Program-made: the position numbers and the translations under genes | Notes under the pieces: model-generated | Told to the model about the DNA's origin: nothing | Seen by the model: only the letters and a program-made list of their open reading frames with translations | The model's database searches: none | From: a virus | Length of the DNA stretch: 22,954 bases | IMG/VR virus record: IMGVR_UViG_3300044630_002377 | Location: 1-22,954 of that record | Direction: 5' to 3' (one strand) | Part shown: in pieces, positions 7,535 to 22,954 of the stretch | Numbering within the stretch: the first letter of the stretch is position 1 | Layout of the letters: every line of letters begins with the position of its first letter

Positions 7535-8821
7535 TTACACTTTTCCGTAATCAATTCCCCAACTGGCTTTGATTGGAAACCCACCATCTTCAATGATATC
7601 TTTTAAGGATTTTGCGGATTGTGTATCACTATCAGCAGGATAATCAAATAGAAATGAATCATATGTGTACAACCTCATTTTAATACCAGTACCCTTAATA
7701 TAATTCATTATACCTACCATCTTATCAACGTTCATCTCCGTTTCCAGCGCTTGTAAAAGATAGTTGAACACCTTTTGTGGATTTGGTTCTTCAATCCATT
7801 TAAGTGGAATGTGGCGATAACGGGTTTGGAGATATCCGTTTTTTGATGTTTCTTCCCATACCTTTTGAATCCATTCATCTACGGCTTTAAAGTATGGTAT
7901 TTGGTGAAACTCCTTATCAATACCACCATATAGAAGGCGGAACGTAATACCCTTACCTTCACCCACATCACACCCATATTGCTCTGCTAGCCATTGATGA
8001 ACCGATGTTTGTGGTAGGGTAAATCCTATCATTTTACCAATAAGACGAGGGTGATATGCATCATAGTCCATTTGTAGGAATATTCCATCCGATACAAATA
8101 CATCTCGAGTCCCATCCGATTTGTTTAAGGCTGCGAAATTGATACCACCATGTCTATTGGATGGTCTACCTGTCACCGTAAATGGATTGTACTCCGTATA
8201 AATCAAATTATCGGATGTTAGATGTTTTCGGGCTTGAGGCCATCTATCAATAAATTTTTCCCTATCGACCCGAATTCCAAATTGTTCGATTTCTGAAAGG
8301 AGTGGTATGAAGATATCGTTGTACCAATTATAAGTTTTACTTTTTTCATTGATATGTTTTACCAATTGTGGTTCTATTGCTTCACACAATTTAAGAATGG
8401 GAATGGATTGAATGATGTCCTCTTTATAACCTTTGTGTAATAAAGGAGCTACTAAGTGTTGTATTGGTTGTTGGTAATCTATCGATTCGCTATACTTTAA
8501 AAAGTAAGCCGTATCAACATCATTCAACCCCTCCCTAATTGGTGTAATAAAAGATTGTAGTAGCTTTTTCTTTTGGAAAACCCACTTTTCACCAATGGTA
8601 TTCAACAAACCAGCTATTTGCTCATTAGAGAGTGATAGAGCGTCTGTATGTTGATGTGGTACAATATACCTATCGGTTAGGGTTCGTATGAATATGAACG
8701 AAAGAGAAGTGTTTTGCGGATGCTTATCATTATCTACCCACATAGGATACCAAAGAGATGCTTCAGTTTCCAATATGCTCTTTAATTCGTTATATTCACT
8801 AATAGATTCAACAACCTTCAT
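7535..8821 (-). CDS. Short family-A DNA polymerase-like protein lacking the thumb
   Basis: This 428-aa protein has the PolA palm and fingers motifs in order. They are TGRPS (218-222); NRHGGINFAAL (222-232); motif A MDYDAYHPRL with Asp252; motif B K290-x3-F294-x3-Y298-G; GYLQTRYRHIPL (329-340); FNYLLQALETEM (352-363); and motif C YTYDSFLFD with Asp388. Both metal-binding Asp residues are present. The Klenow steric-gate Glu710 position is His257, the HDE Glu is Ser389, and Arg754 of motif B is not conserved. The segment LSEIEQFGIRVDREKF (175-190) matches the conserved helix before the PolA thumb, but fewer than 30 residues separate it from TGRPS where about 100 are usual. The first 160 residues may be a degenerate exonuclease fold. 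The start is supported by promoter P3 immediately upstream. Activity is uncertain. Confidence 0.85.
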   Translation of the reverse strand: MKVVESISEYNELKSILETEASLWYPMWVDNDKHPQNTSLSFIFIRTLTDRYIVPHQHTDALSLSNEQIAGLLNTIGEKWVFQKKKLLQSFITPIREGLNDVDTAYFLKYSESIDYQQPIQHLVAPLLHKGYKEDIIQSIPILKLCEAIEPQLVKHINEKSKTYNWYNDIFIPLLSEIEQFGIRVDREKFIDRWPQARKHLTSDNLIYTEYNPFTVTGRPSNRHGGINFAALNKSDGTRDVFVSDGIFLQMDYDAYHPRLIGKMIGFTLPQTSVHQWLAEQYGCDVGEGKGITFRLLYGGIDKEFHQIPYFKAVDEWIQKVWEETSKNGYLQTRYRHIPLKWIEEPNPQKVFNYLLQALETEMNVDKMVGIMNYIKGTGIKMRLYTYDSFLFDYPADSDTQSAKSLKDIIEDGGFPIKASWGIDYGKV

Positions 8822-8857: not shown

Positions 8858-9889
8858 TTATGATAAAACATCTAAGTTTATATTTGTACCAACTAATTTT
8901 ACAGGCAGTTCTTTCCTTTCAATTGGATTTATGGTATTTTTAATTTGATTATAGTATCTTCGCCATTCGGATTTTATAGTATTTGTTACACCCATAGACA
9001 TATTTAGATTTTTTTCATAATCCAAATTAATAATCTTTGGTAAAAACCCAGAAGGTCTTAGGTATTCAACATTATCTCTCAATTCCAAAATATCATCTCT
9101 CATTTTAGTACCATCGTATTCAATACCATCATCAGAAACTCTCCCCTCATCATGTACCCTTACATATGATAGTATTCTTTTTATGGAGTTATACCCCAAT
9201 CCCAAATATTCCAAACTACCTAAAAATTCTAAATCATCTGCAAACTTAGATTTTAATTGGATTTTATCCTTTACCTTTTTAATGGATGATGTTCGCATAG
9301 TATATGTGTGATATACACAAAATATGTTAGCCTTACTACAATGGATTAAAGATGTCCAATGTTGTGGTTCATCATAATAATCTTCTACAAATCTCCAAGG
9401 GTGTTTCCAAGGATGATTATTAGGAATTATGTAAGCTGCCCAAGTTGAACGTACTTTTTCAATTTCAAATGGTGTATGAGTTTCAACTAATTTAGTTGGT
9501 CCATCTTTTTTTGTAAAATTTACACAAGAACCAAATGAAAAATCTAATTCTGGATTGTTTGTGTATAACTTAACTAAAAACTCTAAGGAATCACGTACTA
9601 ACAAATCATCATCATCTAATCTTACAATAATTTCACCATCAGCCAAATCCGGAGATATTAACCAACTTTCCGAAAACAATTCCCGTTGTGTATTTGTTGT
9701 TAGATATAAAATTCGTTTAGATGGGTGTTTTGATTTGAATTTTTTGTAAATTTCAAAATTATTATTATCCGCACCATCATCAAATAATAGTACTTCCCAA
9801 TCTTTATGAGATTGTAATTCTATTGATGCCAATGATTCTTCTAAAAACTTTTGGCGATTATATGTTCTGACTACTACTGTAACTTTCAT
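8858..9889 (-). CDS. GT2-family (GT-A fold) glycosyltransferase
   Basis: This 343-aa protein starts MKVTVVVRTYNRQKFLEESL, the classic GT2 nucleotide-sugar-binding opening. It continues with VLLFDDGADN (33-42) and the metal-binding acidic motif RLDDDDLL (90-97). It should transfer a sugar from an activated donor; the acceptor could be host surface glycan, virion protein or modified DNA. There is no membrane span. The ATG lies 9 nt after the tmRNA CCA end with no promoter or terminator between, so it is probably expressed from the tmRNA promoter P4. The leader is A-rich (AAATATAAAA) with no Shine-Dalgarno. The C-terminal 100 residues are unfamiliar. Confidence 0.87.
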   Translation of the reverse strand: MKVTVVVRTYNRQKFLEESLASIELQSHKDWEVLLFDDGADNNNFEIYKKFKSKHPSKRILYLTTNTQRELFSESWLISPDLADGEIIVRLDDDDLLVRDSLEFLVKLYTNNPELDFSFGSCVNFTKKDGPTKLVETHTPFEIEKVRSTWAAYIIPNNHPWKHPWRFVEDYYDEPQHWTSLIHCSKANIFCVYHTYTMRTSSIKKVKDKIQLKSKFADDLEFLGSLEYLGLGYNSIKRILSYVRVHDEGRVSDDGIEYDGTKMRDDILELRDNVEYLRPSGFLPKIINLDYEKNLNMSMGVTNTIKSEWRRYYNQIKNTINPIERKELPVKLVGTNINLDVLS

Positions 9890-9898
9890 TTTTATATT

Positions 9899-10274
9899 TG
9901 GTGGAGATGGCGGGATTCGAACCCGCGTCTTGTTCAGTTAAACTAAAGAACTCATTCACAAGTTTATTACATTTTTCTTAATGTACAAAATAGATAAGTT
10001 TTTATATTTCATTATCATCAATATTCCCCACTCTTATTTAAGGAGTCAGCGAGAAGTACTCCGTTGTTCACATTCTATTTAAAGCCCCACGATGTGTGCG
10101 GGAGTGATTAGGCTGCTACAGCGTAATCAGCACCTACGAATGCCATAGCATCTTCGAAGGTCCAAGAAGATAATTCTTCTGCGTTTATTGTTCGATAGGT
10201 ATTTACGGATTTCCATCTAACCCGACTTGTATCATCACAATGATTTACCCTGCCAATCAATTCCAGTCATCCCC
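9899..10274 (-). ncRNA. ssrA: tmRNA (one-piece transfer-messenger RNA)
   Basis: This is a 376-nt one-piece tmRNA for trans-translation rescue of stalled ribosomes. The 5' end GGGGAUG (10274 down) pairs with CAUCUCC before ACCA at the 3' end (seven pairs, one G-U). The T arm is GCGGG-UUCGAAU-CCCGC, and the CCA is encoded. The 5' region has the conserved UGG-AAUUGAUUGG block. A tag reading frame runs from the resume codon GCA (10182) to UAA (10108). UAAAC immediately before the GCA fits the U and A conserved upstream of the resume codon in E. coli. The 24-residue tag begins AEELSSWTFEDAMAF and ends VGADYAVAA. An AGAAGA-AUUA-UCUUCU hairpin lies at the start of the tag region. Promoter P4 is directly upstream. 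Confidence 0.95.
10108..10182 (-). other. tmRNA tag-peptide reading frame
   Basis: There are 24 sense codons plus UAA. The tag ends DYAVAA rather than the common YALAA, keeping the hydrophobic-Ala-Ala end that ClpXP-type proteases read. It is much longer than the roughly 9-12 residues usual in bacterial hosts. Confidence 0.8.
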
Positions 10275-10292: not shown

Positions 10293-10324
10293 CAAATATA
10301 TACAAAATATTTGAGATTTCCAAA
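10293..10324 (-). promoter_or_regulatory. Bacteroidetes-type promoter P4 (tmRNA)
   Basis: Minus strand: TTTG at 10321-10324, 20 nt, then TATATTTG at 10293-10300. The -7 box ends 18 nt before the mature tmRNA 5' end (10274), leaving a short precursor for RNase P to remove. The spacer begins GAAATCTCAAATATTTT, closely matching P1. Confidence 0.8.
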
Positions 10325-10327
10325 TTT

Positions 10328-10843
10328 TTATTGAAAACAGTTAATACCGGAATTGGCACCAGAATCACCACCAAATATCGCAAAATGGAAAGTACTAAAA
10401 GTACCAACGCCCTGCATATGATTAGGAGGTGCGTTATTAGCAAACGAATATGGACCTGCATATACATCCAATACAATAACTCCCGAAATTTGAAAATAAG
10501 CTTCCGTTGAACATCTTGCACAAGCTCCACCAAATGCTGATAATTGTAATTCACCAGGTACACCAGTTATAGTTAGTGTACCATTTCGGTTGTTTTGGGT
10601 AGGACTTATAATAGCGTTTCCAGTAAAAGTACATTGTACTGATGGTCCGGCAGTATGATTATATCTATACCATTCTGATATGGAAGCTGGATTTGCTGGG
10701 TCTGGTCTAAATGCACTATTTGTATTAATAGTTGCATATACACCATTTTCAGCTTCATCAATACCAATAAGAGCAGTAAAACTTCTTCCCAATTCTTGGT
10801 TAATTGTACCAAATGATATTTCTCCTGCCGCAGGTATTGCCAT
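10328..10843 (-). CDS. Small virion or tail-fibre-like protein
   Basis: This 171-aa protein begins MAIPAAGEISFGTINQELGR and contains SISEWYRYNH (54-63). That pattern (M-A-x-P-x-x-G-x-I-S-F...I-N-x-E-L-G) is common at the start of small phage fibre, collar or decoration proteins. The rest is rich in Gly, Asn, Thr and Ser with alternating beta-like segments (GNAIISPTQNNRNGTLTITG) and four cysteines. A late-type element 21 nt upstream supports structural-gene timing. Its gene lies between two glycosyltransferase genes and the tmRNA. It could instead be a host-recognition tip; the exact role is not clear. Confidence 0.7.
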   Translation of the reverse strand: MAIPAAGEISFGTINQELGRSFTALIGIDEAENGVYATINTNSAFRPDPANPASISEWYRYNHTAGPSVQCTFTGNAIISPTQNNRNGTLTITGVPGELQLSAFGGACARCSTEAYFQISGVIVLDVYAGPYSFANNAPPNHMQGVGTFSTFHFAIFGGDSGANSGINCFQ

Positions 10844-10923: not shown

Positions 10924-11943
10924 ATGAAATGTTACCACTCTTTTATCATTAGTACTAAAATTTCTCCATACGAATGTTTAGTTCAACTATATGCTGTTAT
11001 TAAACACAAAATGATAAATCCAAAAATACCAATAATTTTACTTACAGATAAAAAATCATTTCAGATTTTTAAATCATTAGAATTGGTAGATATTTATGAT
11101 GATGTTATAACGGATATATTTGATGATTACCCATATGATAGAATTTCTGATGCATTTTGGTCATCGCCTAAGATATGGGCTATTTCTAAATTACCAACAC
11201 CATTTGCTATTATAGATACCGATTTAATTTATAATAGACCATTAAAAGAATTTGAACATTTTGATTTTGGGTATTTGCATAGAGAAACTTCTAACGTATA
11301 TCCAAGACCATATGAAATATCGACACCAAATGGATTTAAATGGGAATCCGATATGTTGTATTATTTTAGAATTTCCACACCAATTAATGCTGCTGTTTTA
11401 TATTTTAATAATGAAATTTTTAAAAACGAATTTACTCAAAGATATTTTAATTTTGTATTAGATAACGAAGGTAAGTTTGTAAACATAGCTGAGGAGTTGT
11501 TAAAAGATAGTGTTATAGTAAATGGAATTCTTACTTCTTACATAGCCCCATCTGCAGCAGTTATATTTGCAGAACAAGCTATGTTAGGCGCTTTGGTTGA
11601 AAAATATATGTCTACTGATACTATATTTCGTTCAGGGCAATCATTACCAATAATATTTAATTCAGCCTTTTTTAATAGATTTTCAGCGGAAGAAAATAGA
11701 AAGTCTATTCAAGAAATGATTAATGAAAGTTATTATCATTTATGGGGAGCTAAATATTTTATCAATAATGATGAGTGTAATTGTAAGTTACCAAAGATTG
11801 CAGAAATGCTTATAAAATCAGGACAAGAATTACTTACCAATGGAAATTGTTGGGATAAATATGGTAGTATATACGAAAGATATAAAAAACAAATTATCCA
11901 ATCTTTGCAAACTGCAAATAATTTGGAAGATACAACAAAATAG
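10924..11943 (+). CDS. Glycosyltransferase-like protein, the only plus-strand gene
   Basis: This 339-aa protein has an alpha/beta start (MKCYHSFIISTKISPYECLV, then KIPIILLTDKK at 34-44). FAIIDTDLIYNRPL (94-107) carries a DxD-type motif, Asp98-Thr-Asp100, typical of GT-A enzymes that bind a metal-nucleotide sugar. This resembles capsular-polysaccharide or GT8-like transferases. Two cysteines in NDECNCKL (about 280-287) are a local oddity. It would glycosylate a host-surface, DNA or virion target; the sequence does not say which. It interrupts an otherwise all-minus region, and its last 50 bp overlap the 3' end of the convergent 118-aa gene. No Bacteroidetes-type promoter or late element is visible upstream. 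The gene is AT-rich like its neighbours. It may be an acquired cargo gene. Confidence 0.75.
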   Translation: MKCYHSFIISTKISPYECLVQLYAVIKHKMINPKIPIILLTDKKSFQIFKSLELVDIYDDVITDIFDDYPYDRISDAFWSSPKIWAISKLPTPFAIIDTDLIYNRPLKEFEHFDFGYLHRETSNVYPRPYEISTPNGFKWESDMLYYFRISTPINAAVLYFNNEIFKNEFTQRYFNFVLDNEGKFVNIAEELLKDSVIVNGILTSYIAPSAAVIFAEQAMLGALVEKYMSTDTIFRSGQSLPIIFNSAFFNRFSAEENRKSIQEMINESYYHLWGAKYFINNDECNCKLPKIAEMLIKSGQELLTNGNCWDKYGSIYERYKKQIIQSLQTANNLEDTTK

Positions 11944-12251: not shown

Positions 12252-14573
12252 TTACGCTTTCTTTTGTTGTTGCTGTCTAAAACCACCTTCTATTTGAGTT
12301 TTCCAAGTCATATCATCAATTGTATGCTTTACAGATAATACTTGGAAGAATCCATTGTCTGCGTATTTTCTTGGAATACCTCTTACTTTAAATTTATCAC
12401 CTCTTTTAATTCCACTTACACCGTGTACCGTAAATGTAAATTTAATTGGTAACAATACAGAAACTGCAGCTGCATCTGTAGTAGTATCATTTCCTACTTT
12501 TTTTGCATCAAATACCATCAAATCATTTAAACATCCAATATAAATTAACTCTTCCAATGCTAAACTAAAATCACTCGTTCCTTCTAAATTTATTTTTGGA
12601 AAAATACCAACTTTTTGTAAAAACAATTCTAAATTCTTTTGAACTTCATCATCTTCACTTTTAACTTCACCACCAGCATCTTCATCTGAAGATGGTTCTT
12701 TACTTTGAAGTTGAATATCTTTTAAAATCTTATCGGTAAGACCTGTTGCGAATAGTTTACCTTCATACGATGGTCTTGATGAGTTTACATCACCACCCAA
12801 TCTACTTCCAATAATCCTATTCATTTGCTCACCACTAATATCCATATCAAATGATGCTTCGGTAAATATACTATTTAATCCATACACATCAAAAGTTGCA
12901 ATATTATCAAACGTTGTATTAGATACTAAATTTAAATCAACTATCTTTAGCATGTAATTTGAAACACCAACTTTTGTAGCACTATTATTTGCAGTTACTT
13001 CAGCTGATGGTGCTGGTACTTGAATTATTTGAAAATCCCACAATCCACCAGCAGCAGATGATAATCCATTTAGTATTTGATATAAGGCATCTTTAATAAC
13101 AAAGTTTTTAGTTTCTAAAATACCTTTTGCAAAATCAAAATTTACATAAAGGTCATCTAACCAACCCCATTTCTCTGCAGGTATAGTACTACCTTTTATA
13201 GTTGTATTTGTAAAATCAATTTTTATACCATCGGCTGTACCATTAGATACTGCATTTGGACTTGGAAATTGAATATCAATTTCACCATATTTTACGTTGT
13301 TTGGAAATGTTCCACTATATGTGTTTTGTGGTTCTGCATTAGTTGCCGCCTGCTCCAAATCAAATTTTGGTGTATTTTTATTTGGTATAAAAAGTTTTGA
13401 TTTATCTGCACTAAATATTTCTGGAAATGCTGATATGATTGTTGTAGAACTATCAATTGTCATTGTAACAAATTCATTTCCTATTTTATAACCATCTATA
13501 CCAATACTATTCATTATTTTAATCAGTGCTCCAAATCTTATAAAAGCATCATCTCCGATAATTTTAGTACCGGTTGGAAAACTTACAGATTTACCACCTT
13601 CACTTACTTGTGAATCATTTTTAATTAACCCAAAAAACGCACCGTCAGTTTTATTATTAATAGCGTTTTTAACTGCCTCATCAAAATTAATAAAATTAAC
13701 AGGACTTGCCATTGGAATCTTTCTTGAATCAACGTTACTTATTAAATCTTTTACCAATTGAGTTTGACGATTACTTGATAATTTGTTATACATCTGCATA
13801 AACCTTTTCTTACCCAAATCTTGCTCACTTAAAACTTTATAAGTTGGATATTTTTTTGCAGCAGTTTCAATCTTTTCTCCCTTTTTTTCAATATTATCAG
13901 CTGCCATAAAGTATGCTGGCAATTCTGTGAAACCTGTACAACTTATGTTTACAACCCAACCATCACCATCCATACCAATACTACCACCAGTTATAAATCC
14001 TAAATAGCAATCATATAATCCACCACTCTTACTTCTTCTCTCATTTATTTTTGCAAAGTTTTGAGTATCGGTTATATAACTTTCAGAAAGAGTTGATTGA
14101 TATGTTGCTAATGATGCTTTTTGATTCCAACCCCATTCTATATAAATTGTAAAACCAGGTTCTAAGAAATATTTTGTTATTTCATTTAATTGAGCTTCAG
14201 TATATACTTTTATTGAAAAGCTTGCTTTACGAGAAATATTACCACTACCTTCATCTATTTCAATTGATGTAATGTTTGGTTTAGGTTTTAATGGTTGAGC
14301 TTCGCCAGATGCATATATTGCAGTACCATCCCAAGTTACACCAATAACTCCAGAATTTGCTGAGTTTCCGTATATACTTGGTAATGTTTTATCACCAGCT
14401 GCTTTAAAAATACTAAAATTTGGATTCGATAACAATACACATCCATTACCAACACCAGAAGCAACTCTAACCCATGCAGTTAATCCACTTATACTTAACT
14501 GGTCTTTTTTTCTTGAATTTAAAGTAGTTTGAACATAGTCTGATATGTTCGAAAAATTAGGAAATGATGACAT
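12252..14573 (-). CDS. Baseplate hub-like structural protein
   Basis: In this 773-aa protein, residues 100-150 contain ITSIEIDEGSG, ASFSIKVYTEAQLNEI and FLEPGFTIYIEWGWN, a block I associate with baseplate hub proteins of T4-like phages. The C-terminus has VSGIKRGDKFKVRGIPRKYA, GFFQVLSVKHTI and TWKTQIEGGFR, the beta-rich end typical of hub proteins of the gp27/gpD type. A Ser/Asp/Glu-rich linker (EPSSDEDAGGEVKSEDDE) sits near 620-650. It probably forms the central hub connecting the tail tube to the cell-puncturing device. No lysozyme or spike domain is seen in it. It lies 5 nt downstream of the LysM gene and 1 nt upstream of the 118-aa gene. The exact T4 counterpart is inferred. Confidence 0.75.
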   Translation of the reverse strand: MSSFPNFSNISDYVQTTLNSRKKDQLSISGLTAWVRVASGVGNGCVLLSNPNFSIFKAAGDKTLPSIYGNSANSGVIGVTWDGTAIYASGEAQPLKPKPNITSIEIDEGSGNISRKASFSIKVYTEAQLNEITKYFLEPGFTIYIEWGWNQKASLATYQSTLSESYITDTQNFAKINERRSKSGGLYDCYLGFITGGSIGMDGDGWVVNISCTGFTELPAYFMAADNIEKKGEKIETAAKKYPTYKVLSEQDLGKKRFMQMYNKLSSNRQTQLVKDLISNVDSRKIPMASPVNFINFDEAVKNAINNKTDGAFFGLIKNDSQVSEGGKSVSFPTGTKIIGDDAFIRFGALIKIMNSIGIDGYKIGNEFVTMTIDSSTTIISAFPEIFSADKSKLFIPNKNTPKFDLEQAATNAEPQNTYSGTFPNNVKYGEIDIQFPSPNAVSNGTADGIKIDFTNTTIKGSTIPAEKWGWLDDLYVNFDFAKGILETKNFVIKDALYQILNGLSSAAGGLWDFQIIQVPAPSAEVTANNSATKVGVSNYMLKIVDLNLVSNTTFDNIATFDVYGLNSIFTEASFDMDISGEQMNRIIGSRLGGDVNSSRPSYEGKLFATGLTDKILKDIQLQSKEPSSDEDAGGEVKSEDDEVQKNLELFLQKVGIFPKINLEGTSDFSLALEELIYIGCLNDLMVFDAKKVGNDTTTDAAAVSVLLPIKFTFTVHGVSGIKRGDKFKVRGIPRKYADNGFFQVLSVKHTIDDMTWKTQIEGGFRQQQQKKA

Positions 14574-21512: not shown

Positions 21513-22954
21513 TTATGCTGAAAAACTTGCTCCAGTTGGTAAGATGTTGAAATCAATTACGATGAATTCAGCGGTCTTAGCCGGTTGTAAGAATATTTGT
21601 CCAGCCATAATGTTTCTATCTATAACATCAGGTGTATTGTTTGTTTCATCCATCACAACTTTGAATGCGTATAAACCTTGTCTTTGTTGAATTGCTTCTA
21701 AGTATGGGTTTACAGTGTTCAAGAATCTATTTCTAGTTGTAGAAGTGTTTTGTTCGAACACTAAGTAACGAGATGTAGATGCGATGTACTTCTTAACAGT
21801 GATAAGTAATCTTCTTACGTTGATTCTATCTAATGCTGAAGCCTTATCTTGCAATGTCTTCTGTCCGAATGCTACAATACCTTGTCCAGGGAATGCTGCG
21901 ATTGGGTTTACTTTGTTTTCATATAAAGTATCTCTCTCAGCGTGCGTTAATCTATTCAATACACTAACTGCTCCAGTGATACCACCTCTATTCAAACCAG
22001 CAGGTGCGAACCATTCTGCTGCTAATCTATCATTAGCTGCGTAAACAGCCGGCATCAATACTGATGGTGGAACTGAAGTTAATTTGTTAGTATTTGAATC
22101 AATTGTTTTAACCCAAGGATAGTAAGTACCAACGTAGTTTGAATCAACTGCGTTTGATTGCTCCGTAGCCATTGTGATTGTATCATTTACTGCGTTAAAA
22201 TCAGCTATATAGAAACAATCTTGTCTATCTTCTACCATATCAATTACTTTTTGAGTAATAGATGGGTGAAGGCTTCTGATGATACCAGGTGTTACAACCA
22301 TATTGATATCCCACTCATCAGGGTTTCCTATTGCGTTAATTGCTTTAGTATATGCTACCGAACCAGACGAAGTTGAAGTTGAACAATTAAATCCTTGTGT
22401 ATTTGCTCCAGATATATTTGAACCTAAGTTAACTCTAGTAGTTACGTTTAAGCCATCAAATCCGTTTTGGAATGCTAATACAAATTGTCTCTTAACCATA
22501 TCAGTCGATGCTGAACCGGTCATTACATATGTTAATTGTGAATCGAATGCAAATCCAACGTTAGAACCAGTCTCAGCGTTTTGAGGAATTGGTTTCAAAT
22601 ATTGGGTGTTATCGATTGTTGTAAAATCAAATCCAGAATAATAAATTGGAGATGATGATGTATTTCCAACAGATGTAGTTTGGAATGTTACAGCAGGTAC
22701 TAAAAGTGATTGTGCATTATTAGTAGCCTTTATTGGGTTTGTATATGCCCCATGTCCAAATGGTGCTGCTGATATTGGGAATGAACCCTGCTCTGATACT
22801 ACAACTCTTACATATTTTGATTGGTTGGTATAATCACCATTTTCAGTAATTTTACCATCGTTATCAATTGTTAAGTATCTATCACCAATTCTTCTTGCGA
22901 TATAGTTTGGAGAAGCTGGGTCTAAGTTTACGTTATTGAATGTTTCTAAAACTG
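21513..22954 (-). CDS. Tail sheath protein (gp18-like), 5' end outside window
   Basis: The frame is open from the window edge to the stop at 21513, giving 479 visible residues. A TTG at 22598 is an internal leucine, because the frame continues upstream without a stop. Upstream residues include NYIARRIGDRYLTIDNDGKI and NQSKYVRVVVSEQGSFPI, typical of the gp18 mid-domain. The C-terminal part has WFAPAGLNRGGI, NKVNPIAAFPGQGIVAFGQK, RINVRRLLITVKKYI and FEQNT...RFLNTVNPYLE, the conserved C-terminal sheath domain that polymerises around the tube. Its contraction drives DNA delivery. The family call is secure. Confidence 0.95.
   Translation of the reverse strand, partial: VLETFNNVNLDPASPNYIARRIGDRYLTIDNDGKITENGDYTNQSKYVRVVVSEQGSFPISAAPFGHGAYTNPIKATNNAQSLLVPAVTFQTTSVGNTSSSPIYYSGFDFTTIDNTQYLKPIPQNAETGSNVGFAFDSQLTYVMTGSASTDMVKRQFVLAFQNGFDGLNVTTRVNLGSNISGANTQGFNCSTSTSSGSVAYTKAINAIGNPDEWDINMVVTPGIIRSLHPSITQKVIDMVEDRQDCFYIADFNAVNDTITMATEQSNAVDSNYVGTYYPWVKTIDSNTNKLTSVPPSVLMPAVYAANDRLAAEWFAPAGLNRGGITGAVSVLNRLTHAERDTLYENKVNPIAAFPGQGIVAFGQKTLQDKASALDRINVRRLLITVKKYIASTSRYLVFEQNTSTTRNRFLNTVNPYLEAIQQRQGLYAFKVVMDETNNTPDVIDRNIMAGQIFLQPAKTAEFIVIDFNILPTGASFSA

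Follow-up and report, generated by a model that had tools for sequence, protein, structure and literature searches.

To our knowledge, why phages carry genes for tmRNA is an open question, and the locus described here raises it in a pointed form: what would a phage do with a tmRNA whose tag is over twice the usual length? The stretch of DNA that we analyzed, referred to throughout as the window, is a virus record of 22,954 bases. It is a fragment of a T4-like myovirus with the gene content of a phage, encoding a gp32-type single-strand binding protein, endolysins, baseplate parts, a gp19-type tail tube and a tail sheath, in agreement with the myovirus tail and lysis setting that an earlier note on this DNA had proposed. 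Comparison of the window with 50,697 phage records by megablast gave no match.

In an Rfam cmscan of the window the single match over cut-off was to RF00023 (91.2 bits against a gathering threshold of 47; E 1.3e-34). The match is collinear, spans positions 1–374 of the 374 in the model and is not cut off, indicating that the gene is neither circularly permuted nor two-piece; the earlier note, which had read a complete tmRNA here, is borne out by this full-length covariance-model hit. ARAGORN also called a tmRNA with the same 24-residue tag, but placed its 5′ end at 10372, 98 nt farther upstream. We prefer the Rfam 5′ end because it begins with GGGGATG, which pairs with CATCTCC before the encoded ACCA. 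Specifically, the acceptor stem, T arm and encoded CCA that had been claimed for this RNA are all in place (Table 1), and every pair of the two stems is kept in 33 aligned RNAs. The codon GCA, which follows AATAAAC, falls at the family consensus place for the resume codon in the cmscan alignment, and the tag therefore consists of 24 codons and a stop (10182–10108), so that the resume-codon context and tag frame had also been identified correctly. The window feature is a complete one-piece phage tmRNA with an unusually long tag.

Pseudoknots PK1 to PK4 were aligned by cmscan, with low posterior after the tag, where relatives differ in kind. Clearly different forms of this post-tag region (alignment columns 185–485) occur beside nearly the same tag, and they look as if they were exchanged modules.

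Table 1 Features of the tmRNA locus and of other genes in the window (positions are those of the window)
Feature	Position	Strand	Evidence or remark
One-piece tmRNA gene (ssrA), 376 nt, 3′ CCA encoded	9899..10274	minus	cmscan RF00023
Acceptor stem, 5′ strand GGGGATG	10268..10274	minus	Pairs with 9903-9909; 7/7 pairs kept in 33/33 RNAs
Acceptor stem, 3′ strand CATCTCC	9903..9909	minus	Followed by ACCA, 9899-9902
T stem-loop GCGGGTTCGAATCCCGC	9910..9926	minus	5 pairs in 100% of cells; 4/5 with both-sided changes
Tag reading frame, 24 codons and stop, AEELSSWTFEDAMAFVGADYAVAA	10108..10182	minus	ARAGORN coding part 191-265 from 10372; cmscan resume position
Conserved tag extension ELSSWTFEDAMAFVGA	10129..10176	minus	Upstream of terminal DYAVAA; alignment
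Putative promoter, Bacteroidota type	10293..10324	minus	TTTG 10321-10324 and TATATTTG 10293-10300
Leader element AGTTCTTTAA	10280..10289	minus	5 nt before mature 5′ end
Glycosyltransferase family 2 gene	8858..9889	minus	Pfam PF00535, E 2.1e-16; start codon 9 nt beyond tmRNA 3′ end
428-aa gene, remotely similar to DNA polymerase A	7535..8821	minus	Downstream of tmRNA in 36/93 loci
773-aa gene	12252..14573	minus	Relatives upstream of tmRNA in 46/93 loci
Tail sheath	21513..22952	minus	PHROG 23, E 1.8e-63; yardstick for phage relatedness

Relatives were collected by two routes, whose locus counts overlap and are not counts of independent phages. By the first, the tail sheath was searched for in viral contigs, the best 80 loci were taken, and 50 of their records were searched for tmRNA; 16 of the 50 held one over cut-off, and all 16 of these tmRNAs have the long tag in frame, in records not chosen by the tag. 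By the second, a tag pattern gave 309 stretches, of which 197 encode a relative; of the 80 of these that were taken further, 79 show the tag by the search expression. Scanning of the first 60 sheath loci with ARAGORN gave a tmRNA in just one, because most of the tmRNAs lie outside those loci. The program also read the tag wrongly in L088, L094 and L096, for which we took it from the reading frame, and it missed the tmRNA that Rfam detected in L231 and L232; in L251, too, it called none. For further work we used 41 records, 38 of them tag-bearing and three phage records without the tag (PP395634.1, LR756508.1 and MW353176.1). RF00023 scored over cut-off in 37 of the 38 and in LR756508.1, the exception being G082, in which the tag lies near a contig end.

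From these data we extracted 45 family RNAs, the window's included (38 distinct; two are a few bases short at contig ends). The long tag is in frame in all 45, with a whole length of 23, 24, 25 or 26 codons in 7, 29, 3 and 6 of them, respectively. Among the loci collected there are 28 distinct core variants, with 22 or 23 residues from a conserved Glu to the end, and across the family the extension of about 16 residues that precedes the C-terminal A[VLIY]AA has the consensus VELST[MW]TFEDAMAFVGA. The Trp to which the earlier note drew attention occurs in some tags but is not general, since others have Met or Phe there.

The 3′ ends are less uniform. CCA is encoded in 23 of the 43 uncut family members, and the other 20 end in CAA (15), CTA (4) or CGA (1); 3′ maturation must therefore vary within the family, and the 20 members without CCA would need host trimming and CCA addition. 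An exact 27-base 3′-end pattern matched 16 stretches, nine of them with the long tag. Four more (L103, L108, L112 and L114) are viral contigs whose tmRNAs are of the permuted type, with 10–14 residues in the tag, and in the remaining three ARAGORN called no tmRNA. Two further records stand apart. LR756508.1, a 484 kb uncultured phage and distant sheath relative, has a tmRNA (L233:2435-2881, 72 bits) with a candidate tag of about 33 residues, NADYESAGFTAEDFAQMDGESLYHGSERKPAAV, that ends in AAV and not AA; its frame and start were read by hand, and ARAGORN differs. An 'Acinetobacter phage' record (L082, CAKLQF020000028.1) has the ssrA tag ANDETYALAA and an adjoining integrase gene, and has the look of a stretch of host chromosome bordering a prophage.

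Comparison of 33 aligned RNAs indicated that the acceptor stem, helix 2, T stem and stop-codon hairpin have changed on both sides with pairing kept. Both-sided cells number 136, compared with 48.5 after shuffling and no more than 24 with partners slid, for a structure that was derived from the same alignment; one of five structure measures, further pair types, was not raised (30 against 30.9 shuffled). In the acceptor and T stems 100% of cells are paired, with both-sided changes in 1/7 and 4/5 pairs, one acceptor pair having A-U replaced by G-C in 14 of the 33 members. In the stop-codon hairpin 99.1% of cells are paired, and a U-A to A-U exchange is seen in 12/33, the alanine codons changing in step.

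The tag itself is conserved in a different manner. The 28 core tag DNA variants of the 45 RNAs encode 18 core peptides, and among 22 equal-length variants the variable columns at codon positions 1, 2 and 3 number 7, 3 and 17 of 22 codons (Fisher p 3.8e-5, third against first and second positions), with a pN/pS of 0.257 over 22 haplotypes; nucleotide identity in the alignment of 33 RNAs is 0.841 in the tag, 0.842 in the acceptor and T arm and 0.631 elsewhere, all of these figures coming from related sequences that are not independent events, with shared ancestry uncorrected. One locus (L229) has exactly the tag DNA of the window, with 50% identity in the remainder of the RNA. The phages that carry the tag are far less alike: by best segment, sheath identity to the window is 66–86% in 20 of the 38 tag-bearing records, 51–53% in five and 29% in G065, and no sheath was detected in 12, some being fragments. 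By these measures the tag is under purifying selection as a peptide, across phages with widely diverged sheaths, and its near-constancy in such different phages suggests that they use it for a purpose of their own.

What might that purpose be? We give a probability of roughly 55% to the reading in which the window encodes a functional phage tmRNA that carries out ordinary trans-translation with host SmpB, and in which the tag combines a degron with an extension that acts as a second recognition element; it is the conservation of the extension that points to such a role. The tmRNA would have a promoter of its own, and its transcript would be matured by enzymes of the host. Once it carries alanine and is in complex with the host's SmpB, it would enter stalled ribosomes during infection, with the long tag being added to the stalled protein. 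Its C-terminal A[VLIY]AA would serve as the usual ClpXP-type degron and the extension as a second protein-recognition element, whose partner would most likely be a host protein (protease, unfoldase or adaptor) shared among the bacteria that these phages infect. The phage would thereby have tagged products removed in a way that serves it. Should the extension prove to have a partner, bacterial protein quality control would gain a new recognition element, and the approximately 16 codons of the extension would offer a defined handle on the fate of tagged proteins and on phage yield.

The A[VLIY]AA C-terminus fits the ClpX-type degron of ssrA tags. All 28 core variants end in this way, as the search expression demanded; the tags that ARAGORN read correctly, which the search expression did not force, end in the same way. 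SmpB was not found in any of the 41 records searched, many of which are fragments, and host SmpB would therefore be needed. Recognition of ssrA tags by SspB and ClpXP in E. coli and Caulobacter provides a model for an adaptor-binding segment ahead of the ClpX signal. The tag-bearing phages differ from those systems in that SspB is absent from all 38 of their records (of the 14 control genomes, SspB was present in those of E. coli and Caulobacter alone). ClpP is encoded in 5 of the 38 (G054, G056, G057, G059 and G084), 3.6–3.9 kb from the tmRNA; given this low count and its occurrence in the tag-less W01 and in W02 as well, we rejected phage ClpP as a general partner. Nor did we find a dedicated phage partner, that is, a gene present in all seven tag-bearing genomes compared yet absent from both tag-less relatives, in a comparison with the G065 proteins as queries (blastp, E 1e-4) that included several incomplete records and sequences of W03 and G057 short by 366 and 926 bases. 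The two genes common to all seven, one PhoH-like and one epimerase-like (named by eye), are shared with W01 and/or W03 as well. We therefore consider the extension most likely to target a partner in the host. Two other properties of the tag were considered and rejected. An amphipathic helix in the extension was not supported, the hydrophobic moment being no higher than in shuffles for 5/5 variants (p 0.30–0.46), and mimicry of another phage protein was not supported, because the 38 tag-bearing records hold no second tag-like copy beyond a weak match in G065 (E 0.097).

The sequence upstream of the gene supports the promoter of its own that the earlier note had proposed. TTTG and TATATTTG have the spacing of Bacteroidota promoters. 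A motif TTTGG...TATATTT, a looser one worded after sight of the sequences, is present in 23 of the family's 36 distinct upstream regions, where 0.015 would be expected; a stricter motif occurs in 13/36 against 0.28 expected. The motif is absent from 13 of the 36 regions, and several of the tmRNAs without it adjoin tRNA genes and may be transcribed from upstream. Between promoter and gene, 13 of 33 distinct upstream regions have the sequence AGTT[CA]TTT[AG]A at a spacing of exactly 5 nt from the mature 5′ end, against an expectation of 0.21; it resembles a boxA antitermination element. The host is probably a member of the Bacteroidota, because the promoter is of this type, because Shine-Dalgarno-like sites are scarce (3 of 15 window genes examined), and because Flavobacterium phages are, with one phage recorded from Microcystis, the nearest named phages by sheath. 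A search of genome contigs with the window sheath gave one match, in a MAG of a phylum represented by 3 genomes, and is uninformative on the host.

The genes around the tmRNA also recur. Among nine window ORFs within 6 kb, six have relatives near tmRNA in 46, 43, 39, 36, 29 and 23 of 93 loci, a set in which a contig can be represented by more than one locus; the comparison excluded, by a size filter, the short ORF 10328-10843 that adjoins the tmRNA. The three ORFs without such relatives in the 93 loci are a 118-aa ORF, a 339-aa plus-strand ORF (10924-11943) and the glycosyltransferase gene. The last has no relative near tmRNA in any of the other 92 loci (a cluster of one), and is perhaps an insertion transcribed from the tmRNA promoter. 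In several other phages the tmRNA is located among tRNA genes, and two tag-bearing phages (L246 and L251, from G062 and G063) have >20 tRNA genes around it. Ribosomal protein bS21 is encoded in seven of the 38 tag-bearing records (G053, G059, G061, G062, G064, G041 and G079).

A plainer account is that the tmRNA simply supplements the host system, serving only to keep ribosomes free during infection, its long tag being inherited from an unsampled host lineage and its extension having no phage-specific role. We think this doubtful, but it deserves serious consideration: a survey placed phage tmRNAs for the most part with the tmRNAs of their host lineages (PMC9004378), and the tRNA clusters beside the tmRNA in several records, together with the bS21 genes, make a translation-support package plausible. 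The searches for the tag outside these phages argue against it. In 84,980 species genomes 28 stretches matched one core pattern, from which a changed core would escape, and none was confirmed as a tag, so that the identical host tmRNA raised by the earlier note as a possible sign of carry-over did not appear there. Searches by tblastn gave no relative in 72,556 plasmid records and no match in 50,697 phage records, with a 23-residue query that can miss distant tags. The purifying selection that the extension is under, in phages with far-diverged sheaths, likewise speaks against an extension without a role in the phages.

A bolder version of a phage-specific role is also conceivable, and we regard it as speculative and unlikely. 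The extension could be a viral quality-control code that docks on a conserved host factor and steers products stalled during infection down a path chosen by the phage, which might be fast recycling of host proteins or the protection or relocation of phage ones. If so, the tmRNA gene would be a takeover device found in common in phages that infect the same kinds of host but are dissimilar in other respects.

Distinctly less likely, in our view, is that the tag reprograms quality control in such a way that stalled proteins are not degraded but, for example, sequestered or targeted to the membrane or virion. The length and conservation of the extension would fit such a role, as would its lack of counterparts: within the 38 tag-bearing records it is unmatched elsewhere apart from the weak G065 match, it matches no known family, and searches of PDB, Pfam and PHROGs with the tag gave nothing at E values up to 10. 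The degron-like ending of the 28 core variants and of the ARAGORN-read tags, described above with its dependence on the search expression, argues instead for degradation, as in our preferred reading of a degron with a second recognition element.

It is very improbable that the extension is kept for RNA structure, as an extra hairpin beside the pseudoknots with the peptide a by-product. The earlier note had seen a hairpin-forming segment in the tag, and in silico many isolated tag RNAs do fold into a hairpin (judged by eye); one pair, between columns 130 and 149, is compensatory, with both sides changed in 4/33 RNAs. The hairpin thus forms in part but is incompletely kept in relatives, with 82.6% of cells paired as against 94.9–100% in other helices, and in 6 of its 11 pairs the departures are all unpaired cells. 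RNA structure alone is therefore insufficient to account for the extension, and we rejected the hairpin as the cause of its conservation. Two further observations count against the RNA reading: changes fall mostly at third positions, and the differences in tag length are of whole codons. Barely credible is an origin by assembly chimerism or by passive carry-over from a host. The earlier note had raised it, and the record is indeed a fragment, but the recurrence of six of the nine nearby ORFs beside tmRNA in 23–46 of 93 loci makes chimerism unlikely, and the 16 of 50 sheath-related records with a tmRNA over cut-off also count against it.

Phage tmRNAs as such are known. The earlier note had implied that they are rare, and they are uncommon, but less rare than that, one survey counting them in 402 of 18,146 phage genomes (PMC9004378). 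A conserved long phage tag was not found in the literature that we searched, which was mainly open-access; relative to that literature the conserved long tag is new. What sets it apart is a peptide of twice the usual tag length that is conserved as such in phages sharing little else, with no bacterial copy confirmed. A list of phage-encoded ssrA genes includes those of mycobacteriophages Bxz1, Cali and Wildcat and of Bacillus phage G (PMC4131195), and in Wildcat the tmRNA is reported to be the most highly expressed lytic gene (PMC7474061). The window shares with these phages the possession of an ssrA gene; its tag had no tblastn match in the 50,697 phage records searched. Methylophage Melnitz resembles the window in having a tmRNA in a T4-like myophage, but its tmRNA is described as two-piece (PMC9004378), whereas that of the window family is one-piece and not permuted. 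Streptomyces phage tmRNAs likewise encode a tag, ANSNVASAYALAA, and have a similar 3′ end over about 48 nt, but their tag, as annotated, is of 13 residues and lacks the extension. With the bacterial one-piece tmRNA (RF00023) the family shares the acceptor and T arm, helix 2, the resume-codon context, the AA at the tag end and the stop-codon hairpin. It differs in its tag, which has 23–26 residues and a conserved extension where the most frequent length in a database of 97,179 sequences is given as 10 residues (PMC11915505), in keeping with the unusually long tag that the earlier note had claimed.
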